A stretch of 64,000 nucleotides of DNA, taken from the NCBI GenBank assembly GCA_022376925.1, contig JAIOJX010000003.1, positions 32,994,874 to 33,058,873 on the forward strand. The letters are read 5' to 3'. Each line of letters starts with the position of its first letter. The first letter of the stretch is position 1. This stretch comes from Tragulus kanchil (lineage: Eukaryota > Chordata > Mammalia > Artiodactyla > Tragulidae). Of the stretch, positions 1,539-60,393 are shown piece by piece. Position numbers and translations under genes: made by a program. The notes under the pieces are model-generated. The model was not told the DNA's origin. It made no database searches and was given only the letters and a program-made list of their open reading frames with translations.

Positions 1539-1780
1539 GGATAGAGAGAGACTGTGTTGTTAAGGAACTATGGCTGATGTAGTTAGACCAAGTCTAAAGT
1601 GAGAAATGGTGGGCTACATATACCATGCACTGGAGGCACAAAAGAAACGGCAAACTCTATTTGAGAAAAATCAGAAGGACTTCACAGAAAAGCTGTGCCT
1701 CAAAGGCAGGGTCTACAACCATTTGAGGCAATTTCACCCAGGACCCTACAAACTGTATTCAGTTAAGATATATCTGTTTG

Positions 1781-1976
1781 GGGGGACTTTCCTGGTGGTC
1801 CAGTGGTTTAGAATCCACCTTCCAATGCAAGGGGTGTTCTTTTGATCTGGTTGGAGAGCTAAGAGCCCACATGCCTCCTGGCCCAAAAACCCAAACCAAA
1901 AACAGAACAATATTGTAACTCACTCAATAAAAACCTTCAAAAAGTGGTCCACATCAAAAAAAAAAAAAAAAAAAAC
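1781..1976 (+). repeat. CHR-type tRNA-derived SINE (copy in A1)
   Basis: The element starts with a tRNA-derived head (gggggactttcctggtggt, then ccagtgg and ccaatgcaagggg) and passes through the typical ctaagagcccacatgcc segment. It ends in a long poly-A at 1956-1975. This is an artiodactyl tRNA-Glu-type SINE lacking the BovB-derived tail of Bov-tA. Confidence 0.8.
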
Positions 1977-2880
1977 CTTAAAAAAAGAAAAAACATAAAT
2001 CTGCCTCTAGTTGATGCACTGAGTTTTTCCTGGAGACCTGGGTGGGGTCTATATACTTTTGACATTTGTAGAGGAAACATTTTGAGATGTTCTAAAATCC
2101 TTGAATTCACAAATACTGATTAAGATATAGAGGATGAATAATCACTCAGGCTCACTCACTGGCCAAGTACTTGCTTCCACGTTTCAGCCATGTGGCTTAA
2201 AGGTTGAACACGCAACCATGAGCCCAGCATGCTTGAGAAGGATTTTCCAGGATCGTTTCAATGTTCCAGTGAGGAAGCAATGCTGGACAGAGAATGAGGG
2301 GCAATGACTCCAAGGAAGATGATGAAGGCACACTGGGTTACCTTGAAAACAGGAGAGGAGACACAGGAGGAGGGGTCAGCATCTGGCCTCATGTTACATG
2401 ACCTAATGAGTCACCATGGGCCCACATGCTTTCCTTTCAGCTGGAAAGAACGGAGCATGTATCATCTACTGGACACACTGCGTTCCTGGCACAGTGCTCA
2501 GAGCACCACGAACATGTTACTATTCACTTGTCACTGAAATCTTGTGAGCTGGAAATCAATAAAACTGAGCCTGGAGAAGTGAAAGGCATACAAACTGAGA
2601 AGAGACAGAATTGCACAGTAGGAAAAACAGCAAAAAAAGGATAGAGAGAGACTGTGTTGTTAAGGAACTATGGCTGATGTAGTTAGACCAAGTCTAAAGT
2701 GAGAAATGGTGGGCTACATATACCATGCACTGGAGGCACAAAAGAAACGGCAAACTCTATTTGAGAAAAATCAGAAGGACTTCACAGAAAAGCTGTGCCT
2801 CAAAGGCAGGGTCTACAACCATTTGAGGCAATTTCACCCAGGACCCTACAAACTGTATTCAGTTAAGATATATCTGTTTG

Positions 2881-3074
2881 GGGGGACTTTCCTGGTGGTC
2901 CAGTGGTTTAGAATCCACCTTCCAATGCAAGGGGTGTTCTTTTGATCTGGTTGGAGAGCTAAGAGCCCACATGCCTCCTGGCCCAAAAACCCAAACCAAA
3001 AACAGAACAATATTGTAACTCACTCAATAAAAACCTTCAAAAAGTGGTCCACATCAAAAAAAAAAAAAAAAAAA
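2881..3074 (+). repeat. CHR-type SINE (copy in A2)
   Basis: This is the duplicate of the SINE at 1781-1976, carried in the second copy of duplication A. It differs by one A in the poly-A tail. It should not be counted as an independent insertion. Confidence 0.8.
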
Positions 3075-4496
3075 CCTTAAAAAAAGAAAAAACATAAATC
3101 TGCCTCTAGTTGATGCACTGAGTTTTTCCTGGAGACCTGGGTGGGGTCTATATACTTTTGACATTTGTAGAGGAAACATTTTGAGATGTTCTAAAATCCT
3201 TGAATTCACAAATACTGATTAAGATATAGAGGATGAATAATCACTCAGGCTCACTCACTGGCCAAGTACTTGCTTCCACGTTTCAGCCATGTGGCTTAAA
3301 GGTTGAACACGCAACCATGAGCCCAGCATGCTTGAGAAGGATTTTCCAGGATCGTTTCAATGTTCCAGTGAGGAAGCAATGCTGGACAGAGAATGAGGGG
3401 CAATGACTCCAAGGAAGATGATGAAGGCACACTGGGTTACCTTGAAAACAGGAGAGGAGACACAGGAGGAGGGGTCAGCATCTGGCCTCATGTTACATGA
3501 CCTAATGAGTCACCATGGGCCCACATGCTTTCCTTTCAGCTGGAAAGAACGGAGCATGTATCATCTACTGGACACACTGCGTTCCTGGCACAGTGCTCAG
3601 AGCACCACGAACATGTTACTATTCACTTGTCACTGAAATCTTGTGAGCTGGAAATCAATAAAACTGAGCCTGGAGAAGTGAAAGGCATACAAACTGAGAA
3701 GAGACAGAACTGAGGATTAACCCAGGATTATTTATCACCAAAACCTTTTGCTCTGAACAGTTGGGCCCTTCTTCATTCTCAGTTAAAGACTGAGGACTGT
3801 TGGTGGAATTTGTGCAGAGATGAAAAAGGCTATTGATCTTAGGACCTAGAGGCCGACTGAGGACCCACACCTCTACCAGAGGACCATGTTTATCTCCCGA
3901 GCAGCCCAAGGAATTAAGACAGGGGCTTCCAGGCCAAGCATTGTCAGGAATCTGGTTTTTGTCTTTCTCCAGTTGATGTGGCCCATGACAGGAATTTTTC
4001 ATGCCAGAGCTGAATATATGTGACTAGAAATAGATTACTTCAGGAAGTCAGATTTATACAGTTCAAATAGAAGTAGAGGAAACTGGAAGTAAGACCAGCA
4101 GCTTAATCTGAGGTTGAATCATGCACCATAATTAAGCCTTCTCATTTCCTACTCTTTCCTTCTTCATTTTGCAAGTGTCTCCATCTGTGACTCATCTTTT
4201 TGCAGCAACACTACCCCCTCATATTTCTTTTTTCTTATCTTGCTATATTTTCCATCGACCCTGTCTTTTTAACTTTTCTAGGAAGATCCTATTGGTTTGT
4301 AAAATTATCAAAAAGAAAGATGGAGAAGACTGTTCTTGGAGACACATTAAAAATTCATATTAAATAAGTCAAGGTCCTCGATAAAGCCAGAGGTTATAAC
4401 TTTGTAACTGATGTTACTGAGAACATTGTATACATAAATTAGTATAGCATCCTATTTCCAGCGCTTAAGTTTTGCCTGGAATTCTTCTAGGTATTG

Positions 4497-4695
4497 GGGC
4501 TTCCCCGGTGTCTCAGGGGTAAAGAACCCACCTGCCAATGTAGGAGATGTGGGTTCAATCCCTGGGTGGGGAAGATCTCCTCGAGCAAACTACTCCAGGA
4601 TCCTTGCCTGGGGAAAGCCTATGGACAGAGAAACCTGGAAAGCTACAGTCTATGGGGTTACAAAGAGTTGGGCACGACTTAGCAACTAAACAACA
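4497..4695 (+). repeat. Bov-tA SINE (copy in B1)
   Basis: A full-length Bov-tA SINE. The tRNA-derived head is ggggcttccccggtgtctcag with a box-B-like gggttcaatccc. The BovB-derived tail includes ctccaggatccttgcctgg, atggacagag and gggcacgacttagcaact. Confidence 0.9.
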
Positions 4696-5626
4696 ACAAA
4701 TGACATTCTAGGGACTGGGGTAGAAGAAGACAGGAACTGAGAAAATGTTACTATTCACTTGTCACTGAAATCTTGTGAGCTGGAAATCAATAAAACTGAG
4801 CCTGAGAAGTGAAAGGCATACAAACTGAGAAGAGACAGAACTGAGGATTAACCCAGGATTATTTATCACCAAAACCTTTTGCTCTGAACAGTTGGGCCCT
4901 TCTTCATTCTCAGTTAAAGACTGAGGACTGTTGGTGGAATTTGTGCAGAGATGAAAAAGGCTATTGATCTTAGGACCTAGAGGCCGACTGAGGACCCACA
5001 CCTCTACCAGAGGACCATGTTTATCTCCCGAGCAGCCCAAGGAATTAAGACAGGGGCTTCCAGGCCAAGCATTGTCAGGAATCTGGTTTTTGTCTTTCTC
5101 CAGTTGATGTGGCCCATGACAGGAATTTTTCATGCCAGAGCTGAATATATGTGACTAGAAATAGATTACTTCAGGAAGTCAGATTTATACAGTTCAAATA
5201 GAAGTAGAGGAAACTGGAAGTAAGACCAGCAGCTTAATCTGAGGTTGAATCATGCACCATAATTAAGCCTTCTCATTTCCTACTCTTTCCTTCTTCATTT
5301 TGCAAGTGTCTCCATCTGTGACTCATCTTTTTGCAGCAACACTACCCCCTCATATTTCTTTTTTCTTATCTTGCTATATTTTCCATCGACCCTGTCTTTT
5401 TAACTTTTCTAGGAAGATCCTATTGGTTTGTAAAATTATCAAAAGAAAGATGGAGAAGACTGTTCTTGGAGACACATTAAAAATTCATATTAAATAAGTC
5501 AAGGTCCTCGATAAAGCCAGAGGTTATAACTTTGTAACTGATGTTACTGAGAACATTGTATACATAAATTAGTATAGCATCCTATTTCCAGCGCTTAAGT
5601 TTTGCCTGGAATTCTTCTAGGTATTG

Positions 5627-5825
5627 GGGCTTCCCTGGTGTCTCAGGGGTAAAGAACCCACCTGCCAATGTAGGAGATGTGGGTTCAATCCCTGGGTGGG
5701 GAAGATCTCCTCGAGCAAACTACTCCAGGATCCTTGCCTGGGGAAAGCCTATGGACAGAGAAACCTGGAAAGCTACAGTCTATGGGGTTACAAAGAGTTG
5801 GGCACGACTTAGCAACTAAACAACA
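5627..5825 (+). repeat. Bov-tA SINE (copy in B2)
   Basis: The duplicate of the Bov-tA at 4497-4695, with one substitution in the head. It is a by-product of duplication B, not a second insertion. Confidence 0.9.
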
Positions 5826-5888
5826 ACAAATGACATTCTAGGGACTGGGGATATGAAAATAAATCAGACTCAAAGATGTAAGGGTATT

Positions 5889-6879: not shown

Positions 6880-7235
6880 ATCTGCTATGTTTGGAGAATT
6901 ATATGGAGTGCAACATTACTAAAGGTCAAAGTTGCAGGTGGTGAGAGACAAGAGTAAGGCTGGGGAAATAGCCAATACTAGAGAGAGCTTTCAAAGGGCA
7001 TGCATTCCATCCCTAAGGTGATAGGGTAATGGAGTGGTCCAGAAGGATTTTAAGAAAGAGAATTGATATAATCACATAGTATTTGAGTGATCACCTGGAT
7101 GGTATAAAAAGGAGAGATATGAAGGATGAAACGCTAGAACCTGAGACTCCAGTCAAGAGGGGAGGGGATGGGACTTTGCAGTGGACCCTCGTGGTGTGAA
7201 TGGAGGAGACATAAAGCTGTCAACACTTGGGTAGA
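6880..7235 (+). repeat. L2 LINE remnant (partly in C1)
   Basis: The sequence resembles the 3' region of mammalian L2, with aaggattttaagaaagagaa, atgatataatcacat-like text and a late block of the form gagactccagtcaagagggg. Divergence is high, so the boundaries are approximate. Part is repeated at 8046-8330 by duplication C. Confidence 0.45.
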
Positions 7236-7539
7236 GGGACTCTATGAAGTGCAGGGAGGAATACAAATTTTTTCTAAGGCCCTTGATTTGCTGTTATGAA
7301 TAACAAAGGTGACCCTAATCAGAATGTCAAAACCCTACAGAGATCATTCTGCCATTCATCTTCACAGATCACATTAGATCCTAGTGTGGCTCTTTCTTCC
7401 TTTGCCTCAGGTCCAGGGATTCAATTGTTCTCCTTCAGAAACTCTAGAATTCTGTTGGTTCTTTGGAGGACTTTTTCCTCCAATCTAGATGTGGTATGGG
7501 TCCTCGTCTTCTTCTTCTCTCTCTCTTTTTTAGAAGTAT

Positions 7540-7729
7540 TTAGTTATGTATTTATCTATTTATCTATTTTGACTACACTGGGTCTTAGTTGCATTTTGCA
7601 AAATTTTTGTTGTGTCATGTGAGCTCCTTAGCTGTGGCATGTGGGATCCAGTTACCTGATCAGGAATCAAGCCGGGTCCCCCTGCATTGGGATCTTGGAG
7701 CCTTATCCACTGGAGCACTAGGGAAGTCC
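7540..7729 (-). repeat. CHR-type SINE (copy in C1)
   Basis: Minus-strand tRNA SINE. On the plus strand the A-tail appears as tatttatctatttatc at the left, the body contains gcatgtgggatccagtt, and the head complement is gcactagggaagtccc at the right end. Confidence 0.8.
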
Positions 7730-8628
7730 CTCAGGCTTCTTAAATGTCTTCTTTGCTTGCTATCCCCAAAGACAAATACGTTTTTCCTTCATAGAACTCA
7801 TTGTGTTTGCAATGAATGAATAATGCCAGGAGTGTTTATTTAATGTTTCCTCTCTACAAGTATTTATTCTTGGTGGCAACCGACAGACACCTATTCTGTT
7901 GAACTGGAGTATGAGAAGATATAGGAGCGAGGTTGATGATATGACTAAAAACTCAGGGAAAGAAAATTGGCAGGAAGCCCAAGACATAATGGCCAGGGAA
8001 TATTTCAAGGTGATAGGGTAATGGAGTTGGTCCAGAAAGGCATGTTAAGGCTGGGGAAATAGCCAATACTAGAGAGAGCTTTCAAAGGGCATGCATTCCA
8101 TCCCTAAGGTGATAGGGTAATGGAGTGGTCCAGAAGGATTTTAAGAAAGAGAATTGATATAATCACATAGTATTTGAGTGATCACCTGGATGGTATAAAA
8201 AGGAGAGATATGAAGGATGAAACGCTAGAACCTGAGACTCCAGTCAAGAGGGGAGGGGATGGGACTTTGCAGTGGACCCTCGTGGTGTGAATGGAGGAGA
8301 CATAAAGCTGTCAACACTTGGGTAGAGGGACTCTATGAAGTGCAGGGAGGAATACAAATTTTTTCTAAGGCCCTTGATTTGCTGTTATGAATAACAAAGG
8401 TGACCCTAATCAGAATGTCAAAACCCTACAGAGATCATTCTGCCATTCATCTTCACAGATCACATTAGATCCTAGTGTGGCTCTTTCTTCCTTTGCCTCA
8501 GGTCCAGGGATTCAATTGTTCTCCTTCAGAAACTCTAGAATTCTGTTGGTTCTTTGGAGGACTTTTTCCTCCAATCTAGATGTGGTATGGGTCCTCGTTC
8601 TTCTTCTCTCTCTCTTTTTTAGAAGTAT

Positions 8629-8819
8629 TTAGTTATGTATTTATCTATTTATCTATTTTGACTACACTGGGTCTTAGTTGCATTTTGCAAAATTTTTGTT
8701 GTGTCATGTGAGCTCCTTAGCTGTGGCATGTGGGATCCAGTTACCTGATCAGGAATCAAGCCGGGTCCCCCTGCATTGGGATCTTGGAGCCTTATCCACT
8801 GGAGCACTAGGGAAGTCCC
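8629..8819 (-). repeat. CHR-type SINE (copy in C2)
   Basis: The duplicate of 7540-7729 inside the second copy of duplication C. It is identical over the readable length and not an independent insertion. Confidence 0.8.
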
Positions 8820-9424
8820 TCAGGCTTCTTAAATGTCTTCTTTGCTTGCTATCCCCAAAGACAAATACGTTTTTCCTTCATAGAACTCATTGTGTTTGCA
8901 ATGAATGAATAATGCCAGGAGTGTTTATTTAATGTTTCCTCTCTACAAGTATTTATTCTTGGTGGCAACCGACAGACACCTATTCTGTTGAACTGGAGTA
9001 TGAGAAGATATAGGAGCGAGGTTGATGATATGACTAAAAACTCAGGGAAAGAAAATTGGCAGGAAGCCCAAGATTGGGCAGTTGAAAGGTGAGCCAGTTC
9101 ACACCTGGGTGACTGTCTCTTTAGAACTTAATCAGTGAGCCCACTGCTACACCACTGGACTCAGAACTCTGTTGGCATGACATTTCTGAAGAATGTCCAA
9201 GTTGTTTCTGAGCCGTTGTCATATGCCCTCAAAGCTGGCATTCCTAGAATAGTGTGTCTGGTTTGGATGTTGGGAGATAGGAAAGAAATGAAGGTTTTTT
9301 ATTAACTTCCTCAGTGGGAAAGTGGGAAGCAAGCTACCCTCTTCCCCTGATAACTCTCTAGGATGTCCTGCCCACACAAGGGCGAATTCAGAGTCGTATA
9401 TCTTCTCATCTCTATATTTAGAGA

Positions 9425-9459
9425 TACACACACACGTGCACACACACACACACACACAT
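9425..9459. repeat. (CA)n microsatellite (D1)
   Basis: A dinucleotide CA run with one interruption (cacacacacgtgcacacacaca). The second copy at 10501-10533 is shorter by two bases. Confidence 0.9.
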
Positions 9460-9663
9460 TATATATCTGGCAGACAGGAAGTTTCATGAAGATAGAATTT
9501 CATTCTCATTGACTGTCTTATCTCCCAGCGCCTGTTTATTCCAGACAAGGGTAGATCATAAATCCTCAGCAAATATTTCTTGGATGAATGGGAGAACAGA
9601 TGAATGAACCTGCCTTAAAAACCCGGCATTTTACTTCTAATCCCTGTAGCACTTTAATAAATG

Positions 9664-9886
9664 CTGAAGCTGAAGCTCCAATACTTTGGTCACCTGATGT
9701 GAAGAGCTGACTCATTAGAAAAAACCCAGATGCTGGGAAAGATGGAAGCCAAAAGGAGAAGGGGCTGACAGAGGATGACATGGTTGGATGGCATCACTGA
9801 CTCAATGGATATAAGTCTGAACAAATTCCAAGAGATAGTGAAGGACAGGAAAATGTGGAGTGCTGTGGTTCAGGAGGTCGAAAGAG
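9664..9886 (+). repeat. BovB LINE 3' end fragment (D1)
   Basis: Plus-strand BovB 3' region with the sequence gaagctccaatactttggtc, gctgactcattagaaaa, gatgctgggaaagatgg, aggatgacatggttggatgg and catcactgactcaatgga. It is cut at the duplication junction before its natural end. Confidence 0.85.
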
Positions 9887-10739
9887 AATGACTGTCCTCA
9901 GGCTTCTTAAATGTCTTCTTTGCTTGCTATCCCCAAAGACAAATACGTTTTTCCTTCATAGAACTCATTGTGTTTGCAATGAATGAATAATGCCAGGAGT
10001 GTTTATTTAATGTTTCCTCTCTACAAGTATTTATTCTTGGTGGCAACCGACAGACACCTATTCTGTTGAACTGGAGCATGAGAAGATATAGGAGCGAGGT
10101 TGATGATATGACTAAAAACTCAGGGAAAGAAAATTGGCAGGAAGCCCAAGATTGGGCAGTTGAAAGGTGAGCCAGTTCACACCTGGGTGACTGTCTCTTT
10201 AGAACTTAATCAGTGAGCCCACTGCTACACCACTGGACTCAGAACTCTGTTGGCATGACATTTCTGAAGAATGTCCAAGTTGTTTCTGAGCCGTTGTCAT
10301 ATGCCCTCAAAGCTGGCATTCCTAGAATAGTGTGTCTGGTTTGGATGTTGGGAGATAGGAAAGAAATGAAGGTTTTTTATTAACTTCCTCAGTGGGAAAG
10401 TGGGAAGCAAGCTACCCTCTTCCCCTGATAACTCTCTAGGATGTCCTGCCCACACAAGGGCGAATTCAGAGTCGTATATCTTCTCATCTCTATATTTAGA
10501 GATACACACACACGTGCACACACACACACACACATTATATATCTGGCAGACAGGAAGTTTCATGAAGATAGAATTTCATTCTCATTGACTGTCTTATCTC
10601 CCAGCGCCTGTTTATTCCAGACAAGGGTAGATCATAAATCCTCAGCAAATATTTCTTGGATGAATGGGAGAACAGATGAATGAACCTGCCTTAAAAACCC
10701 GGCATTTTACTTCTAATCCCTGTAGCACTTTAATAAATG

Positions 10740-10998
10740 CTGAAGCTGAAGCTCCAATACTTTGGTCACCTGATGTGAAGAGCTGACTCATTAGAAAAAA
10801 CCCAGATGCTGGGAAAGATGGAAGCCAAAAGGAGAAGGGGCTGACAGAGGATGACATGGTTGGATGGCATCACTGACTCAATGGATATAAGTCTGAACAA
10901 ATTCCAAGAGATAGTGAAGGACAGGAAAATGTGGAGTGCTGTGGTTCAGGAGGTCGAAAAGAGTTGCTCATGACTTAATGACTGAACAATAACAGCAA
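10740..10998 (+). repeat. BovB LINE 3' end fragment (D2, complete end)
   Basis: The same BovB fragment as at 9664-9886, here continuing through ggtcgaaaagagttgctcat and gacttaatgactgaacaata to its 3' terminus. It is 5'-truncated with no intact reading frame. Confidence 0.87.
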
Positions 10999-12338: not shown

Positions 12339-12919
12339 AGCAGAAGAGCTTCCCGGGCCTTAAAAAAAAGAGAAATCGCTGACCTACAGAAATACCTGAT
12401 TCTAATTTGCTGTACAAATGGAAACCTTTTCTTCTCTAGATTGGATGCAGAGAACTTGTTTTTTTCAATGTTTATAACTTAACAAGTCCTTAGAGCCTTT
12501 CATCTGAAAGCAATTTATGCATGTTGAACCCAATTATCCTAACATGTTTTAAAACTTACCAGTATTTTTCCTCTTTCACCTTGGTGCATGAGTCCCATTG
12601 CACAGCAAATCTTCAATTTAATCATGGAATGGCTTTATGGATTAAAATGCTTAGAAAACCCTTATTGCCCTGGAAAGAATAATTCTGGAGAAAATGATCT
12701 ATTCTTCTAACAGAAATGGAAATTTTGGGTTTGGATCTGAATTCAGCCATGCCATGTACTCTTTAGTCAGAAGAGATGTTGAGTCATAAAGCCACACTCA
12801 CTGTCTGTTTCCTTCGTTTTGGGAGAAAGCCAGGTGGCAAATATGTTACCTTAATCTGGTGCCATCCATCAGTCTTGAGCCATCTGCTCTGCTCATTTGT
12901 TAGGGTGGTTTATTCAGTC

Positions 12920-13450
12920 AGTTCATTCAAGAAATATTTATTGAGTGCTTACTCTGTGCCAAGGACTATGCTAGAAACTGGAAAGAAAAGGGTGGAAAAG
13001 CAAGATGTAAGTGTGCCTGGGCGTTTGCACTTATGAGAGAGGTAATATGCACACAAATAGTTCATCGTAATACTGTGGGAAAAAAAATAAAAACACCTTG
13101 ATGAAAGAACTTGGCCCCAGATGACCAAGATCTTGATCCCATCACCCAGCCAAGATGGAGGACATGAGGTTATGGTTCCCAACGAAGTGAGAGCTAAGAT
13201 GAGGGAGGGATGGGTGTTAGATGAACAGAAGGGAGAAAGAATATTCTGGAAGAGGAAGTAGAGCCCGTTTGAGAGCCCAGAAGTCACATGATTGCAAAAT
13301 GGAAAAGTTTCACTCAGCTGCAGGATAGAGCATAGGGTTGCATGTTGTAAAAAAAAATCTTGCTGAGCAATAAGGAGAATCCAGTTCATTAGGACCCTGT
13401 AAACCCTAAGAAGGAATTCAGACATTTTCCTGAAGGACATGGGGATCCAC
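12920..13450 (+). repeat. L2 LINE remnant (E1)
   Basis: Old L2-like text: aagaaatatttattgagtgc, ttactctgtgccaaggacta and tgctagaaactggaaag. Much later come accctgtaaaccctaagaag and acattttcctgaag, in the order seen at L2 3' ends. The antisense 167-residue open frame across it is chance, with no recognisable domain. Confidence 0.55.
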
Positions 13451-14063
13451 AAGAGAACTTTATACAGAGGAATAAGTAGAAGTGAAAAAGCAGAAGAGCT
13501 TCCGGGCCTTAAAAAGAAATCGCTGACCTACAGAAATACCTGATTCTAATTTGCTGTACAAATGGAAACCTTTTCTTCTCTAGATTGGATGCAGAGAACT
13601 TGTTTTTTTCAATGTTTATAACTTAACAAGTCCTTAGAGCCTTTCATCTGAAAGCAATTTATGCATGTTGAACCCAATTATCCTAACATGTTTTAAAACT
13701 TACCAGTATTTTTCCTCTTTCACCTTGGTGCATGAGTCCCATTGCACAGCAAATCTTCAATTTAATCATGGAATGGCTTTATGGATTAAAATGCTTAGAA
13801 AACCCTTATTGCCCTGGAAAGAATAATTCTGGAGAAAATGATCTATTCTTCTAACAGAAATGGAAATTTTGGGTTTGGATCTGAATTCAGCCATGCCATG
13901 TACTCTTTAGTCAGAAGAGATGTTGAGTCATAAAGCCACACTCACTGTCTGTTTCCTTCGTTTTGGGAGAAAGCCAGGTGGCAAATATGTTACCTTAATC
14001 TGGTGCCATCCATCAGTCTTGAGCCATCTGCTCTGCTCATTTGTTAGGGTGGTTTATTCAGTC

Positions 14064-14595
14064 AGTTCATTCAAGAAATATTTATTGAGTGCTTACTCTG
14101 TGCCAAGGACTATGCTAGAAACTGGAAAGAAAAGGGTGGAAAAGCAAGATGTAAGTGTGCCTGGGCGTTTGCACTTATGAGAGAGGTAATATGCACACAA
14201 ATAGTTCATCGTAATACTGTGGGGAAGAAAAAAAAAAAAAAAAAACACCTTGATGAAAGAACTTGGCCCCAGATGACCAAGATCTTGATCCCATCACCCA
14301 GCCAAGATGGAGGACATGAGGTTATGGTTCCCAACGAAGTGAGAGCTAAGATGAGGGAGGGATGGGTGTTAGATGAACAGAAGGGAGAAAGAATATTCTG
14401 GAAGAGGAAGTAGAGCCCGTTTGAGAGCCCAGAAGTCACATGATTGCAAAATGGAAAAGTTTCACTCAGCTGCAGGATAGAGCATAGGGTTGCATGTTGT
14501 AAAAAAAAATCTTGCTGAGCAATAAGGAGAATCCAGTTCATTAGGACCCTGTAAACCCTAAGAAGGAATTCAGACATTTTCCTGAAGGACATGGG
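14064..14595 (+). repeat. L2 LINE remnant (E2)
   Basis: The duplicate of 12920-13450 in the second copy of duplication E, apart from a longer internal A-run. Confidence 0.55.
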
Positions 14596-14635
14596 GATCC
14601 ACAAGAGAACTTTATACAGAGGAATAAGTAGAAGT

Positions 14636-14779
14636 GAAAATCACTCAGTCTTGTCTGACTTTTTGTGACCGATGGAATTCTCCAGGCAAGAATACTAGAG
14701 TGGGTAGCCTTTTCCTTCTCCAGAAGATTTTCCCAACCCAGGGATTGAACCCAGGTCTCCCACATTGCAGGCAGATTCA
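14636..14779 (-). repeat. Bov-tA SINE, partial
   Basis: Minus-strand Bov-tA. The plus strand reads tcactcagtcttgtctgact, tctccaggcaagaatactag, then agggattgaacccaggtctc. The tRNA head is missing after ttgcaggcagattc. Confidence 0.85.
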
Positions 14780-15876: not shown

Positions 15877-18073
15877 ATTTCTCTGAAGGCTGTCAATCCA
15901 CAGCTTCATTTCAAAAACATCTGTAATACTTCTTATTATAGACATGTGAGAATAAAGATTATAATTTGAAATATAAAATTATAAAGTGATACAATTTTTT
16001 TAAAATGAGAGTCCTCCCTAAAAACATGTTTTGATTCAGTACATGTTTACACTCCAGGCTATGAGATTCCCTTGATGCACGCACTGAAGTCCCTTTGACT
16101 CCAGGGAATCTGTGTGTGCCTATAAACTGAAAAAAGAATATATACAGCCTATAAACTAAAAAAAGAATATATACAGCAATTGTGTTAATTACAATAGAAT
16201 TATTGTTCAGATCAAAATATCTCACTGAGGCCTCGTCTGAAGGGTGAGCATGTGCATCATATTTGCAGTTTGACGACTGAAATTAAAGGAACAGCCATTT
16301 GTTTCTGACTTTATATTTTAGAATCTTCCCAAGTTAAGTTGTACAGTTGCTCCACAAGAAGAAGATACGAGCTGAAATATACAGTTACTGATTTTCCAAG
16401 GGCCTAATGAATCTAATTCTCCCTTCCTTCTTGAAGCTCTTGCAGATTCCCAGGAAGAAGTACAATTTCAATCTCTTCCTTCCGTTATGTGAAAACAATG
16501 CTTTCCTTACTCAACAATCTTATGTGAAGTTCTCTGGAATGTATTTTTATATGCTATTCCAAAATCCTGGCTCTCACCTTCATCGGAAAAGCAGAGGATT
16601 TCCTTACAATGCTGAGAGCTACTCTCGGTCAGTAGTCCTCAAACTGTTCCTAGGAGCCTTTCATATGCTTAAAAAATGACTGAAAACTCCAAAGTTCTTT
16701 TGATTATGTGAGCTATATCTACCAATAGTTAACTCTTTAGAAACAGAAGCTGAGAAAAAATTTAGTCATTTATTAATTCATTAAAAAATAAATCTATTAT
16801 GTGTTCCAATCAATAATGTCTTTACAGGAAAATAATCCTATTTTCTAAAGCAACCTTGCAGTGAGAAAATGTATGGAGTGACATTTTTGAAAAATCTCTT
16901 TAATGTTGTGCGAATAGTTGACCTCTCATGTCTGTATGTGCACCCCATCTGCTGAATTGCACGTAGAAACTTGGTGACATATATTTCTCTGAAGGCTGTC
17001 AATCCACAGCTTCATTTCAAAAACATCTGTAATACTTCTTATTATAGACATGTGAGAATAAAGATTATAATTTGAAATATAAAATTATAAAGTGATACAA
17101 TTTTTTTAAAATGAGAGTCCTCCCTAAAAACATGTTTTGATTCAGTACATGTTTACACTCCAGGCTATGAGATTCCCTTGATGCACGCACTGAAGTCCCT
17201 TTGACTCCAGGGAATCTGTGTGTGCCTATAAACTGAAAAAAGAATATATACAGCCTATAAACTAAAAAAAGAATATATACAGCAATTGTGTTAATTACAA
17301 TAGAATTATTGTTCAGATCAAAATATCTCACTGAGGCCTCGTCTGAAGGGTGAGCATGTGCATCATATTTGCAGTTTGACGACTGAAATTAAAGGAACAG
17401 CCATTTGTTTCTGACTTTATATTTTAGAATCTTCCCAAGTTAAGTTGTACAGTTGCTCCACAAGAAGAAGATACGAGCTGAAATATACAGTTACTGATTT
17501 TCCAAGGGCCTAATGAATCTAATTCTCCCTTCCTTCTTGAAGCTCTTGCAGATTCCCAGGAAGAAGTACAATTTCAATCTCTTCCTTCCGTTATGTGAAA
17601 ACAATGCTTTCCTTACTCAACAATCTTATGTGAAGTTCTCTGGAATGTATTTTTATATGCTATTCCAAAATCCTGGCTCTCACCTTCATCGGAAAAGCAG
17701 AGGATTTCCTTACAATGCTGAGAGCTACTCTCGGTCAGTAGTCCTCAAACTGTTCCTAGGAGCCTTTCATATGCTTAAAAAATGACTGAAAACTCCAAAG
17801 TTCTTTTGATTATGTGAGCTATATCTACCAATAGTTAACTCTTTAGAAACAGAAGCTGAGAAAAAATTTAGTCATTTATTAATTCATTAAAAAATAAATC
17901 TATTATGTGTTCCAATCAATAATGTCTTTACAGGAAAATAATCCTATTTTCTAAAGCAACCTTGCAGTGAGAAAATGTATGGAGTGACATTTTTGAAAAA
18001 TCTCTTTAATGTTGTGCGAATAGTTGACCTCTCATGTCTGTATGTGCACCCCATCTGCTGAATTGCACGTAGA
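15877..18073. repeat. Tandem duplication F (two ~1.09 kb copies)
   Basis: Positions 15877-16967 recur at 16983-18073 at a constant offset of 1106, with no difference I can see. The 15-bp junction (aacttggtgacatat) resembles the flank before copy 1 (atgatgcatatagc) with errors. The segment is AT-rich and non-coding. Confidence 0.94.
16119..16176. repeat. 2 x 29-bp tandem repeat
   Basis: Two adjacent 29-bp units beginning cctataaact and ending atatatacag, differing at one base (tgaaaa versus taaaaa). The same pair is carried again at 17225-17282 by duplication F. Confidence 0.9.
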
Positions 18074-18349: not shown

Positions 18350-18537
18350 GAAAGATTTTTAAATTTATTTTTAGTTGTACTGGGCCTTCACAGCTTTGTG
18401 CAGGCCTTCTCCAGTTGTGGCCAGTGGGGGCTACTCTTTGTTGTGATGCACAAGCTTCTCATAGCCGTGGTTTTGACCCTGTGTTCCTGGCATTGCAAGG
18501 TGTATTCTTAACCACTGGGCAACCAGGGAAGCCCCTG
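18350..18537 (-). repeat. CHR-type SINE
   Basis: A second minus-strand tRNA SINE directly after the previous one. It has tttagttgtactgggccttc, gggggctactctttgttgtg and gggcaaccagggaagcccct. Duplication G begins inside it (about 18459), so its 3' part (plus-strand order) reappears at 19591-19664. Confidence 0.8.
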
Positions 18538-18671
18538 AAAATAGTTCTGATCCTGCAAAACAGCTGAAATATATTGAGAGATTCCACTCTCCCCTCTGTC
18601 CCTGTGCCCAGAGAGTTTTGCGGATAAAATCTGAAAACTGCTAGTCATCGCTGCACTATGATGTATTAGCA

Positions 18672-18903
18672 ATTTGTTGTTGCTTAGTCACTAAGTCATG
18701 TCCGACTCTTTGCTACCCCATGGACAGTAGCCCGCCAATCTCCTCTGTCCACAGGATTTTCCAGGCAAGAATACTGGAATAGGTTGTCATTTCCTCTTCC
18801 AGGGGATCTTCCTGACCCAGGGATTGATCCTGCACCTCCAGCATCTTTTGTGTCTTCTGTGTTGGCAGGCAGATTCTTTGCCACTGAGCCACCAGGAAAG
18901 CCC
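18672..18903 (-). repeat. Bov-tA SINE (G1)
   Basis: Full-length minus-strand Bov-tA. It has ttgttgttgcttagtcacta, catgtccgactctttgctac, ttccaggcaagaatactgga and the head complement tgagccaccaggaaagcccc. Confidence 0.92.
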
Positions 18904-19037
18904 CCTTCCCTTAGAGACTGAGTCTCAAATGGCTGGCAGCTCATGATGAAATTATTGATGATTTGTGAATCTTTGACTTAGTGACATTTGATGCCAAATT
19001 ATTACAGAACTATCCACTGTTCCATGAACTCAGCAGG

Positions 19038-19180
19038 TTTTTTATTATTATTATTATTCTTTCTTCATTTATTCCTTCCTTCTTTCCTTTCTCTTTTCTT
19101 CCTTCCCTCCCTCATTCTCTTCCTCTTTCCTCTTCTCCCTCCCTTCCTTCCTTCCTCTCTTTCTTTCTTTCCTTCTTTAG
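19038..19180. repeat. Polypyrimidine (TTCC/TTCT)n tract (G1)
   Basis: About 140 bases that are almost pure C/T on the plus strand after a short (TTA)n run. They include repeated ttcc, ttct and ccct units. The serine/leucine-rich open frames here are a by-product of low complexity. Confidence 0.92.
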
Positions 19181-19796: not shown

Positions 19797-20026
19797 TTGT
19801 TGTTGCTTAGTCACTAAGTCATGTCCGACTCTTTGCTACCCCATGGACAGTAGCCCGCCAATCTCCTCTGTCCACAGGATTTTCCAGGCAAGAATACTGG
19901 AATAGGTTGTCATTTCCTCTTCCAGGGGATCTTCCTGACCCAGGGATTGATCCTGCACCTCCAGCATCTTTTGTGTCTTCTGTGTTGGCAGGCAGATTCT
20001 TTGCCACTGAGCCACCAGGAAAGCCC
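19797..20026 (-). repeat. Bov-tA SINE (G2)
   Basis: The duplicate of the Bov-tA at 18672-18903 in the second copy of G. It is not an independent insertion. Confidence 0.92.
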
Positions 20027-43685: not shown

Positions 43686-44175
43686 GAAATCTTAGGTTCA
43701 CTCTTTAATGCCCCGCCATCTAGAAAAAGTAAGTAAACCCCTGGAACTGTATTTACCTAGCTCATTTCCAGGGAGCTGGACCCTCCAATGAATTTGAGCC
43801 TCTTGACATAGCAGTGGTGCCCACTGGCTTGAATCAATGACTCCCATCTCTAACTGTGCAACTACCTGACCAGCTGTGGAAGCCACCTAAGCCCAGGCCC
43901 AAACTGAGACCCATGAAACCAGAATCTTCTGGGGCCCTGGCACCATTCCTTCAAAAAAATCTCTCCAGGTAATTATAACATGCAACCTGGGCCAAGGATG
44001 ACTTACCTGCAAATTACTATTATTCAACCATAGCATGCAATGTTCATTCATGACCTCCTCCTGAATCAGGTATACGTAATTTTATTTATGATCACTCACG
44101 AAGATTCTAAGCACAGAAGCCTTTTTCCTTTATGGCAGCATACAGTGTCCATTTATTTTACATTAAAGGAACAAG

Positions 44176-44374
44176 GGGCTTCCCAAGTAGCACTAGTGGT
44201 AAAGAACCCACCTGCCAATGCCGAAAATAATGCACCTCATAATGAGATGAGGGTTTCATCTCTGGATCGGGAAGATCCCCTGGAAAAGGAAAAGGCAACC
44301 CAATCCAGTATTCTTGCCTGGAAAATCCCATGCACTGAGGAGCCTGGTGGGCTACAGTCCATAGGGTCACAAGA
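44176..44374 (+). repeat. Bov-tA SINE (K1)
   Basis: Plus-strand Bov-tA with ggggcttcccaagtagcact, taaagaacccacctgccaat, gggaagatcccctggaaaag, ccaatccagtattcttgcct and ggtgggctacagtccatagg. It ends early at cacaagag. Confidence 0.9.
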
Positions 44375-44446
44375 GCACATAGTTAGGCAAAATAACCTCT
44401 ATTCTCAGTCAGCAGGCATGCTCTGATGTGCAAGGTGGGATTAAAA

Positions 44447-44620
44447 TGGAGCTCCCCAACTTGGGCACTGTTGATGCCTTGGGCCAGATAGTTCCTTATG
44501 TGGGGAGTAGATTTTCCTATACATTATAAGAGCTTTAGTGTTATTTCTGACTTTCACCCACTACATGCCTATAGCGCCTCCTCCCAATTGTGACAAATAA
44601 AAATGTTTCCAGACAAAAGA
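44447..44620. mobile_element. MER20-like hAT element (K1)
   Basis: A decayed DNA-element copy: ctccccaacttgggcactgt, tgatgccttgggccagatag, acccactacatgcctatagc, then caattgtgacaaataaaaat and gtttccagac. The order matches the MER20/hAT-Charlie family as I remember it; the family name is tentative. Confidence 0.65.
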
Positions 44621-45289
44621 ACAGTATCACAGAGCTCTAGACATTTGCTCCAAAGACAGGGAGGTAGGAAGAGGGGAAAGAAGGCAAACCCTGATCCTGG
44701 GGTTAATCCATTACAGTCCAAACCGCTGTCAAGATAAGTAAAATTTCCAGTCTAACCCAATACCCTCTTGATTTTTTTCCTTTGGGGTTAAAACCACTGA
44801 AATCTTAGGTTCACTCTTTAATGCCCCGCCATCTAGAAAAAGTAAGTAAACCCCTGGAACTGTATTTACCTAGCTCATTTCCAGGGAGCTGGACCCTCCA
44901 ATGAATTTGAGCCTCTTGACATAGCAGTGGTGCCCACTGGCTTGAATCAATGACTCCCATCTCTAACTGTGCAACTACCTGACCAGCTGTGGAAGCCACC
45001 TAAGCCCAGGCCCAAACTGAGACCCATGAAACCAGAATCTTCTGGGGCCCTGGCACCATTCCTTCAAAAAAATCTCTCCAGGTAATTATAACATGCAACC
45101 TGGGCCAAGGATGACTTACCTGCAAATTACTATTATTCAACCATAGCATGCAATGTTCATTCATGACCTCCTCCTGAATCAGGTATACGTAATTTTATTT
45201 ATGATCACTCACGAAGATTCTAAGCACAGAAGCCTTTTTCCTTTATGGCAGCATACAGTGTCCATTTATTTTACATTAAAGGAACAAGG

Positions 45290-45488
45290 GGCTTCCCAAG
45301 TAGCACTAGTGGTAAAGAACCCACCTGCCAATGCCGAAAATAATGCACCTCATAATGAGATGAGGGTTTCATCTCTGGATCGGGAAGATCCCCTGGAAAA
45401 GGAAAAGGCAACCCAATCCAGTATTCTTGCCTGGAAAATCCCATGCACTGAGGAGCCTGGTGGGCTACAGTCCATAGGGTCACAAGAG
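45290..45488 (+). repeat. Bov-tA SINE (K2)
   Basis: The duplicate of 44176-44374 in the second copy of duplication K. Confidence 0.9.
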
Positions 45489-45560
45489 CACATAGTTAGG
45501 CAAAATAACCTCTATTCTCAGTCAGCAGGCATGCTCTGATGTGCAAGGTGGGATTAAAAT

Positions 45561-45735
45561 GGAGCTCCCCAACTTGGGCACTGTTGATGCCTTGGGCCAG
45601 ATAGTTCCTTATGTGGGGAGTAGATTTTCCTATACATTATAAGAGCTTTAGTGTTATTTCTGACTTTCACCCACTACATGCCTATAGCGCTCTCCTCCCA
45701 ATTGTGACAAATAAAAATGTTTCCAGACAAAAGAA
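45561..45735. mobile_element. MER20-like hAT element (K2)
   Basis: The duplicate of 44447-44620, one base longer in a ct-rich run. Confidence 0.65.
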
Positions 45736-45871
45736 CAGTATCACAGAGCTCTAGACATTTGCTCCAAAGACAGGGAGGTAGGAAGAGGGGAAAGAAGGCA
45801 AACCCTGATCCTGGGGTTAATCCATTACAGTCCAAACCGCTGTCAAGATAAGTAAAATTTCCAGTCTAACC

Positions 45872-49772: not shown

Positions 49773-50232
49773 TGATTAAATCAATGACAAAAGTATATGT
49801 TTATGTATTTCATATGATTAATTTGTGGAAACCTAAAAATGTTTATGTGCTTTAGTTCTTAGAACCATAAATGCTTTGATCCAAGCTTATGAGGCAGACT
49901 CAATTACAGAAATGCATTCCACAAAGGTATATCCCTCTCCGAGGCTATTATCTTACTGCTTAACTGTCTTCTTATAATTTTTTATTCACTTGAAATAAAA
50001 TCCTATATGTCATTATTATGTTAGGAATGATGCTATTCTCCATTAACTAATTTAGGTAGAAAGTCATGCCAAAAAAGACCAAATAAGTCAATACTAAATC
50101 CCTATAAAAGTTCTCTCTAATTTGAAAATAATTTTTGTTTTTGTTCAAACCATAATTGATACGGTCTCCTTGGAAACAATCCTAAGAGACTAGCTGGATT
50201 ACAGGAAACCATGTGAGTGAGTGACTGAATGA

Positions 50233-50432
50233 AAGTCATTCAGTCAGGCCTGACTGCTTGCAACCCATGGACTGTAGCCTACCAGGCTCCACTGTCCATG
50301 GAATTCTCCATGCAAAAAGACTGGAGTGGGTTGCCATGCCCTTCTTTTGGGAATCTTCCCAACTCAGGGATCAAGCATGGGTCTCCTGCATTACCAGCAG
50401 ATTCTTTATCATCTGAGCCACCAGGGGCCCCA
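50233..50432 (-). repeat. Bov-tA SINE (L1)
   Basis: Minus-strand Bov-tA with gtcattcagtcaggcctgac, ccatggactgtagcctacca, agactggagtgggttgccat and the head complement ctgagccaccaggggcccc. Confidence 0.92.
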
Positions 50433-51329
50433 GAAACCATGAAATTTAAACCTAAATTATAGTAGTGTTGCCTCTTCCTATTAATGCCAGTCTTGCTAGT
50501 AAAAACAATCTGAATAACTCTCCATCATGCTATAGGCTAAATAGGATGGAAAAGTGCTCTATGTCAGAAGTGTGAGCTGAGAAGGGTGCATGCATATTTT
50601 CAGTGTGTAGTAATACCCTGACATTTTGATTTTACTCACTGGTTTCTTGGGCAAGATGAACATGGCTCTGTGCCCTTGAGACAAAGTCAGTGAGCCTGCA
50701 TTCAGGGACATTCATGTGGAATATTCAGTAATCTCACAGGGTGTGCTTTGTGGGCGGCGGTGGAAAAACCAACTCTTCTCCCACAAGACATGGGCAGCTA
50801 CTTAAAACAGAGTTAATAGCAACTTAGTTGAATTTAACAAGTACCTCCCTCTCCCATTATTTATAGTATATAAGGCACTGTCCTAGTAGTCAAAAATTAT
50901 GTGGTAGATAGAAAGGACATAGCTGCCTCAATTAAATGCATTCCAAAAGGTAGTTCTTAGAACCATAAATGCTTTGATCCAAGCTTATGAGGCAGACTCA
51001 ATTACAGAAATGCATTCCAAAAGGTATATCCCTCTCCGAGGCTATTATCTTACTGCTTAACTGTCTTCTTATAATTTTTTATTCACTTGAAATAAAATCC
51101 TATATGTCATTATTATGTTAGGAATGATGCTATTCTCCATTAACTAATTTAGGTAGAAAGTCATGCCAAAAAAGACCAAATAAGTCAATACTAAATCCCT
51201 ATAAAAGTTCTCTCTAATTTGAAAATAATTTTTGTTTTTGTTCAAACCATAATTGATACGGTCTCCTTGGAAACAATCCTAAGAGACTAGCTGGATTACA
51301 GGAAACCATGTGAGTGAGTGACTGAATGA

Positions 51330-51529
51330 AAGTCATTCAGTCAGGCCTGACTGCTTGCAACCCATGGACTGTAGCCTACCAGGCTCCACTGTCCATGGAA
51401 TTCTCCATGCAAAAAGACTGGAGTGGGTTGCCATGCCCTTCTTTTGGGAATCTTCCCAACTCAGGGATCAAGCATGGGTCTCCTGCATTACCAGCAGATT
51501 CTTTATCATCTGAGCCACCAGGGGCCCCA
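51330..51529 (-). repeat. Bov-tA SINE (L2)
   Basis: The duplicate of 50233-50432 in the second copy of duplication L. Confidence 0.92.
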
Positions 51530-51988
51530 GAAACCATGAAATTTAAACCTAAATTATAGTAGTGTTGCCTCTTCCTATTAATGCCAGTCTTGCTAGTAAA
51601 AACAATCTGAATAACTCTCCATCATGCTATAGGCTAAATAGGATGGAAAAGTGCTCTATGTCAGAAGTGTGAGCTGAGAAGGGTGCATGCATATTTTCAG
51701 TGTGTAGTAATACCCTGACATTTTGATTTTACTCACTGGTTTCTTGGGCAAGATGAACATGGCTCTGTGCCCTTGAGACAAAGTCAGTGAGCCTGCATTC
51801 AGGGACATTCATGTGGAATATTCAGTAATCTCACAGGGTGTGCTTTGTGGGCGGCGGTGGAAAAACCAACTCTTCTCCCACAAGACATGGGCAGCTACTT
51901 AAAACAGAGTTAATAGCAACTTAGTTGAATTTAACAAGTACCTCCCTCTCCCATTATTTATAGTATATAAGGCACTGTCCTAGTAGTC

Positions 51989-55535: not shown

Positions 55536-55546
55536 TCATTCATGGA

Positions 55547-56362: not shown

Positions 56363-58458
56363 CTTCTCTTTTGTGAATTCCTCTGTAACTCTAGCACTGT
56401 ATTGTTTTCACAACTCTATTCATACTGAATAGAAATGAAATGCTCATGAAAATGCTTAGCTGCTTTGACTAAAATCTTTTTTTTTTAACTATTGCTTCTC
56501 TTAGAATCTGTGAACTCCTAAAAAAGAAGGCAGATGGCCTTCAATGCAATTTATTGATAATTTGAAAAAATACATAAATATTCCAGATTCTAGTCTAGGA
56601 GCTACAATGCTGAATAAGCAGGGATCATTTTTCCCTATATAGATTACAATCTATCTTGGAAGAAAAAACTGAGTAACTAATTTTACTTAAAAGTGAAGCT
56701 CAGTGAGGAAATAACTGAAACCTCGTATAGACAAAGAATAAACAAGTTTAGTCTCCTTAAGGTTGATTCTAGTATTAATAACTTTTGTATGACACAAAAA
56801 TTAAATTGGTTTTCCAGACTAATAGAATCATTAGATAGATCAATAATACATGTATCTTGTAAAGGTCACAAAGAGTCTCTGAATTATGGGGCTAACCATA
56901 GTGCTAATTTTATAAACATATAATATTATGATGTATTTGTGAGCCCTCTATGCTAAAGTTACTCTACTTTTGTGAAACTTCAGTTAAATTACTCCTAAAC
57001 GTCAGAGTTTTTTCAAATTCTTTAAGAAACAGGTAGGTTGTATTGAACTATTATAGTTTCAAATATAAATATGTGATATTAAAATACGTCCTTATGTCAA
57101 TCAAAAAGCACAAATAATTCTATGGTAAGCTAAGACACTGAGACATCTTCCCACAAAACAGTAAGGATAGGATCTTTCTATATTTTGACCACATTGAAGT
57201 ACATAACTGGATCATTGGGTTATTAATGAAATAATCTGTTTCTGCCCTGAATGGGGACATCTTGATTATGGGTCCCATTAGAGACCAACTTTCTTAAGGG
57301 CAACCATCATCTCTACCTCTTTTGAATTTCATCACAGTCTCTGGACCAGAATTCTGCACCAAGTGAAATTTACTAAAGGTTGAATAAATCAACTTTGACC
57401 CTCTTCATGAAATTTGCTTCTCTTTGTGAATTCCTCTGTAACTCTAGCACTGTATTGTTTTCACAACTCTATTCATACTGAATAGAAATGAAATGCTCAT
57501 GAAAATGCTTAGCTGCTTTGACTAAAATCTTTTTTTAACTATTGCTTCTCTTAGAATCTGTGAACTCCTAAAAAAGAAGGCAGATGGCCTTCAATGCAAT
57601 TTATTGATAATTTGAAAAAATACATAAATATTCCAGATTCTAGTCTAGGAGCTACAATGCTGAATAAGCAGGGATCATTTTTCCCTATATAGATTACAAT
57701 CTATCTTGGAAGAAAAAACTGAGTAACTAATTTTACTTAAAAGTGAAGCTCAGTGAGGAAATAACTGAAACCTCGTATAGACAAAGAATAAACAAGTTTA
57801 GTCTCCTTAAGGTTGATTCTAGTATTAATAACTTTTGTATGACACAAAAATTAAATTGGTTTTCCAGACTAATAGAATCATTAGATAGATCAATAATACA
57901 TGTATCTTGTAAAGGTCACAAAGAGTCTCTGAATTATGGGGCTAACCATAGTGCTAATTTTATAAACATATAATATTATGATGTATTTGTGAGCCCTCTA
58001 TGCTAAAGTTACTCTACTTTTGTGAAACTTCAGTTAAATTACTCCTAAACGTCAGAGTTTTTTCAAATTCTTTAAGAAACAGGTAGGTTGTATTGAACTA
58101 TTATAGTTTCAAATATAAATATGTGATATTAAAATACGTCCTTATGTCAATCAAAAAGCACAAATAATTCTATGGTAAGCTAAGACACTGAGACATCTTC
58201 CCACAAAACAGTAAGGATAGGATCTTTCTATATTTTGACCACATTGAAGTACATAACTGGATCATTGGGTTATTAATGAAATAATCTGTTTCTGCCCTGA
58301 ATGGGGACATCTTGATTATGGGTCCCATTAGAGACCAACTTTCTTAAGGGCAACCATCATCTCTACCTCTTTTGAATTTCATCACAGTCTCTGGACCAGA
58401 ATTCTGCACCAAGTGAAATTTACTAAAGGTTGAATAAATCAACTTTGACCCTCTTCAT
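56363..58458. repeat. Tandem duplication M (two ~1.05 kb copies)
   Basis: Positions 56363-57408 recur at 57417-58458. A T-run is three bases shorter in copy 2, so the offset falls from 1053 to 1050. Everything after that is identical as far as I can see. The junction is about 8 bp (gaaatttg). No repeat element marks the ends. Confidence 0.94.
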
Positions 58459-58479
58459 ACAATTTAATATTACAATGCA

Positions 58480-58702
58480 GTATTCCCTGGTAGCTCAGCA
58501 GTAAAGAATTCAACTGCAATGCAGGGGACCTGGGTTCGATTCCTCAGTGAGGAAGATCCTCTGGTGGAGGGAGGGCATGGCAACCCACTCCAGTATTCTT
58601 GCCTGGAGAATCCCACAGACAGAGGAACCTGGTGGGCTACACTCCATAGGCTCATAAAGAGTCAGACAGGACTGAAGTGACTGAGCATGCACACACACAA
58701 GC
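58480..58702 (+). repeat. Bov-tA SINE with target-site duplication (N1)
   Basis: Plus-strand Bov-tA with tattccctggtagctcagca, ctgggttcgattcctcagtg, ccactccagtattcttgcct and gtcagacaggactgaagtga, ending in (ca)n. Flanking repeats are aatattacaatgca (58466-58479) and aatattaaaatgca (58703-58716), with one mismatch. Confidence 0.93.
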
Positions 58703-59620
58703 AATATTAAAATGCAATACATTTCATCAATACACATTGTTTTATCCACACAAGTATCCTCAGATCTCTGTACTCTTTCTTATCACAGAAGCTCTTTTGC
58801 TCTATGAACCCTGGAACTACATTGAAGTGCTAACACTTTAGAGTAGAAAAGTACTGACTAAAATGGGTTTCAGGCACACTTTGGAAAACTCCTGATATGT
58901 GCACTATTGGTAGGAAAAACTGCCTACTCATTGGCAGAGATAAGGGGGAAAAAAAGAAGTGCTGTTACAAGAGGAACATGGGAGAAGCAAAGAAGATGAT
59001 CTGGACAGGAGAGAAAAGAGAGTAGAATACCATCTAGGAGGCAATGATACTAAAAAAGTTAAGTTTTAACTCCTAGTGAAAGAAAGCATTCACTTTTCAT
59101 TTTTAAAAAGTTGTACATTAGAAATAAATTTCAAATTCAAATTATTGTCCAACAATACTGAGTACATTTACCTCTGTTCTGTTTTGAGAAAGCTCCACTG
59201 AAAGTTGTGTGATCTTAGTGTAATAAAGGAGAGAGAAAAACCTTGAAACTTATTTAAATTTATGTGATATTAAAATACGTCCTTATGTCAATCAAAAAGC
59301 ACAAATAATTCTATGGTAAGCTAAGACACTGAGACATCTTCCCACAAAACAGTAAGGATAGGATCTTTCTATATTTTGACCACATTGAAGTACATAACTG
59401 GATCATTGGGTTATTAATGAAATAATCTGTTTCTGCCCTGAATGGGGACATCTTGATTATGGGTCCCATTAGAGACCAACTTTCTTAAGGGCAACCATCA
59501 TCTCTACCTCTTTTGAATTTCATCACAGTCTCTGGACCAGAATTCTGCACCAAGTGAAATTTACTAAAGGTTGAATAAATCAACTTTGACCCTCTTCATA
59601 CAATTTAATATTACAATGCA

Positions 59621-59843
59621 GTATTCCCTGGTAGCTCAGCAGTAAAGAATTCAACTGCAATGCAGGGGACCTGGGTTCGATTCCTCAGTGAGGAAGATCC
59701 TCTGGTGGAGGGAGGGCATGGCAACCCACTCCAGTATTCTTGCCTGGAGAATCCCACAGACAGAGGAACCTGGTGGGCTACACTCCATAGGCTCATAAAG
59801 AGTCAGACAGGACTGAAGTGACTGAGCATGCACACACACAAGC
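59621..59843 (+). repeat. Bov-tA SINE (N2)
   Basis: The duplicate of 58480-58702 together with its target-site repeats. Carrying the same flanks shows the pair arose by duplication of the locus, not by a second insertion. Confidence 0.93.
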
Positions 59844-60393
59844 AATATTAAAATGCAATACATTTCATCAATACACATTGTTTTATCCACACAAGTATCC
59901 TCAGATCTCTGTACTCTTTCTTATCACAGAAGCTCTTTTGCTCTATGAACCCTGGAACTACATTGAAGTGCTAACACTTTAGAGTAGAAAAGTACTGACT
60001 AAAATGGGTTTCAGGCACACTTTGGAAAACTCCTGATATGTGCACTATTGGTAGGAAAAACTGCCTACTCATTGGCAGAGATAAGGGGGAAAAAAAGAAG
60101 TGCTGTTACAAGAGGAACATGGGAGAAGCAAAGAAGATGATCTGGACAGGAGAGAAAAGAGAGTAGAATACCATCTAGGAGGCAATGATACTAAAAAAGT
60201 TAAGTTTTAACTCCTAGTGAAAGAAAGCATTCACTTTTCATTTTTAAAAAGTTGTACATTAGAAATAAATTTCAAATTCAAATTATTGTCCAACAATACT
60301 GAGTACATTTACCTCTGTTCTGTTTTGAGAAAGCTCCACTGAAAGTTGTGTGATCTTAGTGTAATAAAGGAGAGAGAAAAAAAAAACCTTGAA

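Follow-up and report, generated by a model that had tools for sequence, protein, structure and literature searches.

Near-constant ~1.1-kb direct repeats in a Tragulus kanchil genome assembly: almost certainly an artefact, probably from unjoined overlapping units

Among described errors, those closest to the one considered here are duplicated overlapping contigs, in which overlapping ends of pieces are retained twice and give a false nearby duplication (Kelley and Salzberg 2010, PMC2864568), and the homotype false duplications of the Vertebrate Genomes Project (VGP), in which read errors, and not differences between alleles, leave sequence under-collapsed (Ko et al. 2022, PMC9516828). Here we analyze a window of 64,000 nucleotides (64 kb; positions 32994874-33058873 of one contig, JAIOJX010000003.1) in a Tragulus kanchil assembly, GCA_022376925.1, of 3,167,203,957 bases in 32 contigs. 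Within it, segments of ~1.1 kb stand twice in direct order, and we compare these pairs with stretches sampled across the rest of the assembly.

The pairs differ from both described forms. The duplications of the earlier paper lie between separate contigs and are ascribed to haplotype differences, with 98.1% identity to the region aligned and few cases >99.5% (Kelley and Salzberg 2010, PMC2864568). Ours lie inside N-free stretches, fall into a single narrow class of lengths, and have a median identity of 99.8%. In homotype duplications as described by the VGP, the two copies are separated by a gap or by a read-depth gap (Ko et al. 2022, PMC9516828). In contrast, the present pairs have no assembly gap between copies, a fixed length of ~1.1 kb, and a redundancy of ~27% in the sampled part of the assembly.

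A third relative is a program rather than a reported error. The assembler wtdbg2 (Redbean) works by default with 256-bp bins, a node length of 1024, and a node overlap of 256, and its consensus is made by wtpoa-cns. Its units have one node of fixed length in common, and the values 1024 and 1792 (two nodes minus 256) that follow from this geometry match those seen here; unlike in our data, a working run merges the common node and leaves no duplication behind.

Paired copies in the window and across the assembly

Self-BLAST of the window gives 17 direct matches, comprising 14 primary pairs and three second-order matches between chained neighbors. The 14 pairs have periods of 1053-1150 bp, aligned copies of 1030-1158 bp, and identities of 98.7%-100%. 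This agrees with a previous sequence-only reading of the window, which had described 14 direct, near-identical pairs of ~1.1 kb and put the redundant share at ~24% (24.2% as computed here). That reading had also considered the pairs independent and in tandem. They are not independent, since neighbors chain and overlap (A/B, C/D, G/H, and M/N have 97, 256, 53, and 339 bp in common, respectively); the direct order stands, but most of the joins are not clean, with 10-61 extra bases between the copies at 12 of the 14. The pairs are as follows.

Pair A: 1537..3709, + strand; copy 1 at 1537-2610, join of 26 bp, copy 2 at 2637-3709; period 1100.
Pair B: 3613..5850, + strand; copy 1 at 3613-4720, join of 24 bp, copy 2 at 4745-5850; period 1132; 97 bp in common with copy 2 of pair A.
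Pair C: 6955..9073, + strand; copy 1 at 6955-7984, join of 61 bp, copy 2 at 8046-9073; period 1091.
Pair D: 8818..10959, + strand; copy 1 at 8818-9883, join of 12 bp, copy 2 at 9896-10959; period 1078; 256 bp in common with copy 2 of pair C.
Pair E: 12339..14640, + strand; copy 1 at 12339-13488, join of 0 bp, copy 2 at 13489-14640; period 1150.
Pair F: 15877..18073, + strand; copy 1 at 15877-16967, join of 15 bp, copy 2 at 16983-18073; period 1106; copies identical.
Pair G: 18475..20716, + strand; copy 1 at 18475-19591, join of 10 bp, copy 2 at 19602-20716; period 1127.
Pair H: 20664..22817, + strand; copy 1 at 20664-21715, join of 50 bp, copy 2 at 21766-22817; period 1102; copies identical; 53 bp in common with copy 2 of pair G.
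Pair I: 29006..31145, + strand; copy 1 at 29006-30052, join of 46 bp, copy 2 at 30099-31145; period 1093; copies identical.
Pair J: 38464..40731, + strand; copy 1 at 38464-39602, copy 2 at 39597-40731, with 6 bp in common at the join; period 1133.
Pair K: 43686..45871, + strand; copy 1 at 43686-44757, join of 41 bp, copy 2 at 44799-45871; period 1113.
Pair L: 49853..51988, + strand; copy 1 at 49853-50891, join of 59 bp, copy 2 at 50951-51988; period 1098.
Pair M: 56370..58458, + strand; copy 1 at 56370-57408, join of 14 bp, copy 2 at 57423-58458; period 1053.
Pair N: 58120..60381, + strand; copy 1 at 58120-59240, join of 20 bp, copy 2 at 59261-60381; period 1141; copies identical; 339 bp in common with copy 2 of pair M.

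We sampled 10-kb stretches at round-number positions, 11 at first and then five held-out stretches on further contigs. These 16 stretches lie on 16 contigs, none of them the window's own, and 15 of the 32 contigs fall outside the sample. The window and the first 11 stretches together form the first sample (174 kb), to which the held-out stretches add 50 kb (total, 224 kb). Pairs of the same kind occur in every one of the 16 stretches, at one to four per stretch, so that the phenomenon is not local to the window. There are 55 pairs in all (42 in the first sample and 13 held-out). Over the first 174 kb the redundant share amounts to 27.0%, and with the held-out figures added it rises to 27.3%. 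Extrapolation from the first 174 kb gives ~760,000 pairs in the assembly and a collapsed size of 2.31 Gb (2.20-2.42 Gb by a rough bootstrap in which the window was entered as six equal values).

We also looked for duplications of other sizes, taking self-matches on either strand of at least 200 bp with >95% identity. All eight of the remaining matches in the first 174 kb are second-order matches between neighboring pairs, and duplications of other sizes are therefore absent at this threshold. The held-out 50 kb contains no other self-match of at least 200 bp and >95% identity.

Several further features were recorded along the way. A TTCC-type pyrimidine microsatellite is found at both 19057-19178 and 20180-20301, two occurrences because it lies inside pair G. 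Outside all pairs, the Rfam model of U2 spliceosomal RNA is matched over its full length (positions 1-192 of 192; 65.8 bits) at 48770-48951 on the - strand, probably by a retropseudogene. Parts of the window resemble ruminant short interspersed nuclear elements (SINEs). At the level of the assembly, 16 of the 26 contigs with known size (32 in total) measure 73-297 Mb and together make up ~3.15 of 3.17 Gb, from which the haploid number would be ~16.

Copy length, joins, and interrupted exons

Length statistics for the first sample are based on its 38 whole pairs; another four run off the edge of a stretch and were excluded. The copies measure 1030-1177 bp (mean, 1096; SD = 40), with periods of 1053-1193 and a median identity between copies of 99.8%. 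In the 12 uninterrupted held-out pairs, the copies measure 1066-1142 bp and the periods 1069-1207. All 50 whole uninterrupted pairs are thus 1030-1177 bp in copy length: none falls below 1024. The 13th held-out pair has a run of N inside one copy and spans ~1085 bp when read across it; this run may be an assembly gap or a masked stretch.

The spacing of the joins has a floor as well. Successive joins in the first sample are 1821-9498 bp apart (30 distances), whereas, when equal numbers of joins were placed at random 2000 times, the minimum distance was always 667 or less. The held-out minimum is 1928 (n = 8) with the N-interrupted pair read whole; the raw output gives 1621 for one of these distances, where the alignment is broken by the N. 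In the first sample, 11 of the 30 neighboring pairs overlap each other, by 53-390 bp, and the other 19 are without contact. Four overlapping neighbors in the held-out stretches, worked out by hand, have 111-238 bp in common at a spacing of 840-997.

Differences between the copies are concentrated at their ends. In the first tenth of the duplicated interval, a base is absent from copy 2 in 18 indels and from copy 1 in two; in the last tenth, it is absent from copy 1 in seven and from copy 2 in none (P = 4e-5, Fisher's test). By halves, the counts missing in copy 2 and copy 1 are 26 versus 7 and then 6 versus 13 (P = 0.001). The held-out pairs give 3 versus 0 in the first tenth and 1 versus 5 in the last. 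Because of this placement, the start of the right-hand unit and the end of the left-hand unit appear as the poor parts, in which bases were lost. Substitutions are few: 35 of the 38 whole pairs have zero to two (17 altogether), and 10 of the 38 are identical.

The bases at the joins resemble, with errors, the sequence that precedes copy 1 or follows copy 2. We compared 25 joins with random flanks, leaving out the 13 other whole pairs (joins of <10 bases or near the end of a stretch). The likeness exceeds the null mean in 22 of these (P = 1.6e-4, sign test), and nine individually reach a level seen in at most five in 100 under the null. Neither end-specific indels nor flank-like joins are expected of a real tandem duplication.

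Coding sequence is doubled and cut in the same way. A search of the whole assembly for the Wnt family, with all 87 candidates scored, gave 79 exon matches, among which same-exon pairs were judged by model position and strand, within 6 kb. There are 28 such pairs, and 24 of them, taking in 45 of the 79 matches, have a separation of 1008-1171 bp. Several of the exon copies are incomplete or appear as two separate matches, and joins therefore fall inside exons. To our knowledge, normal mammals have no such exon duplications; if the pairs were real, broken or doubled exons would run throughout the developmental genes of this animal. Among nuclear pseudogene copies of mitochondrial cytochrome b, 10 of 20 matches lie in five pairs separated by 1035-1151 bp, a doubling that is due to the same artefact. 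For a SINE-bearing query, 16 of the best 38 of the 44 non-self matches form eight pairs 1060-1166 bp apart, and 18 of all 44 lie in such pairs.

Origin of the pairs

Judged from the sequence, the ~1.1-kb pairs are almost certainly an assembly artefact of technical origin and not a biological feature. A technical process had been proposed in the sequence-only reading, and the genome-wide pairs, the cut coding exons, and the noisy unit ends bear this out. Of the two causes it offered, unmerged overlapping ends account for the data better than gap filling with a fixed flank, given that 11 of 30 neighboring pairs overlap and units are as short as 1.82 kb.

The pairs probably arose as follows. The layout of each contig would have consisted of successive units, every unit being a separate consensus from long noisy reads, and neighboring units would have one anchor interval in common, of fixed raw length ~1024 bp. 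The proper step would be to align this common interval and retain it once; at many joins, this step would have failed and the units would have been written consecutively. After a failed join, the common interval would stand as two direct copies, often separated by some tens of noisy bases, which would stem from the sparsely covered end of the left unit together with the head of the right unit. Separately called units with an unmerged common anchor account for all of the principal observations. The most probable program is wtdbg2/Redbean, with nodes of 1024 and a node overlap of up to 256, and the failure would lie in wtpoa-cns.

We infer that the pairs probably come from a wtdbg2/Redbean layout whose consensus step failed to join units. 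An overlap of one node predicts a narrow class of lengths at or above 1024 raw bp, and all 50 whole uninterrupted pairs are within 1030-1177 bp. The predicted floor for a unit is 1792, and the observed minima lie just above it, at 1821 (n = 30) and 1928 (held-out, n = 8). An overlap just >1024 together with a unit floor just >1792 likely reflects the wtdbg2 defaults. Noisy unit ends of low depth, the third expectation, would give the observed placement of indels, with bases missing at the start of copy 2 and at the end of copy 1. The copy lengths beyond 1024 and the loss of bases at the ends suggest that the reads were prone to deletions, as nanopore reads are. Published wtdbg2 runs use node lengths in multiples of 256 (1536, 2048, 2304, and 2560) (PMC11087460, PMC11423352, PMC11931762). 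Among the papers listed in our literature searches, none on a wtdbg2 assembly of a ruminant could be matched to the present one.

Several observations weigh against this origin. The 256-bp limit on node overlap fits only roughly, with neighboring pairs sharing 53-390 bp (held-out, 111-238); ragged ends could account for overlaps beyond 256 bp. Three of the 11 overlapping neighbors in the first sample are spaced at 693-753 bp, less than the expected 768. Individually, 16 of the 25 tested joins are not significant, and three of the 25 fall under the null mean. Three of the 38 pairs have 8, 12, and 24 substitutions, which end noise alone does not explain; in these, the two units possibly come from different haplotypes or from thin coverage. 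Published assemblies, too, offer little precedent. In a human benchmark that includes one wtdbg2 assembly from high-fidelity (HiFi) reads, most assemblies have 0.3%-2.3% false duplications (PMC9668749), and wtdbg2 assemblies of a notothenioid fish have 2.4%-2.6% duplicated BUSCO genes (PMC9635638). Since wtdbg2 normally works without such inflation, one has to suppose a faulty run, odd settings, or poor reads. Finally, duplications within contigs are stated to be rarely mis-assembled, in a passage concerning overlap assemblers (Kelley and Salzberg 2010, PMC2864568); the present case would be an exception to that rule, with duplications of fixed length in sequence free of gaps.

Of the other explanations, the one that survives best, while still unlikely, is that gaps were filled, or contigs merged, with a fixed flank, in which case a short-read or draft assembly would have received long-read sequence that retained its anchor flanks. 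This would yield direct repeats of near-constant size without N, and long-read gap filling is reported to inflate assembly size (PMC9635638). However, joins should then come in twos, separated by two flanks or more (~2.2 kb), a pattern that we do not see: of the 30 neighboring pairs, 11 overlap and 19 are not in contact, and the shortest units measure 1.82 kb. Nor does it give any reason for a floor at 1030 or a mean of 1096.

Slightly less probable again is another assembler, polisher, or custom chunking with overlapping units of ~1 kb and the same stutter. The sequence indicates overlapping units and not which program made them, and the wtdbg2 benchmarks show no such inflation (PMC9668749, PMC9635638). 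Yet fixed chunking would give one length or its multiples, whereas the joins here are anywhere from 1.8 to 9.5 kb apart, and the overlap just >1024 combined with the floor near 1792 points to a node-based layout.

Unpurged haplotype overlaps, in which both alleles of adjacent pieces are retained (heterotype false duplication), seem very improbable. Heterozygosity is a classical cause of false duplication (PMC2864568, PMC9516828), and the three pairs with 8-24 substitutions would suit it. Alleles should differ, however, and the near absence of substitutions in the other 35 pairs, with 10 identical, argues otherwise; haplotype overlaps would also not share one length.

Real tandem duplication by a mechanism with a fixed step size in this species, for which it can be said that the pairs are present in the sequence and that no read data contradict them, has a negligible chance of being correct. 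It would require the extrapolated ~760,000 events, with no other size at threshold and with indels whose position depends on the end of the copy. The animal would also have to tolerate tandem pairs, some of them partial, at 45 of its 79 Wnt exon matches, more than one-half. Real duplications should vary in length and age; we find a single length class.

Consequences for the assembly and its users

If the failed wtdbg2 layout is the cause, the pairs may represent a form of assembly error that is as yet undescribed, in which nodes of fixed length are duplicated within gap-free sequence and a chromosome-scale mammalian assembly is inflated by ~0.85 Gb. We put this forward tentatively, together with the suggestion that its fingerprint (overlap of at least 1024, unit of at least 1792) might identify the assembler and make the error both findable and reversible in other public genomes. 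Among the papers listed in our literature searches, judged by title and the opening of the abstract, we found no wtdbg2-type fixed-length duplication of ~1.1 kb, and the available parts of three further papers contain no description of a ~1.1-kb duplication error (PMC10347838, PMC7367183, PMC8290290). This is weak evidence that the class is undescribed.

For users of the assembly, the size is overstated by more than one-third of the collapsed length, and spurious tandem and exon duplications, lost or broken genes, and inflated repeat counts are to be expected. A histogram of self-alignments, with a spike at 1.0-1.2 kb, would expose this assembly and others with similar faults. For the biology of Tragulus kanchil, the pairs, being almost certainly technical, carry no meaning.

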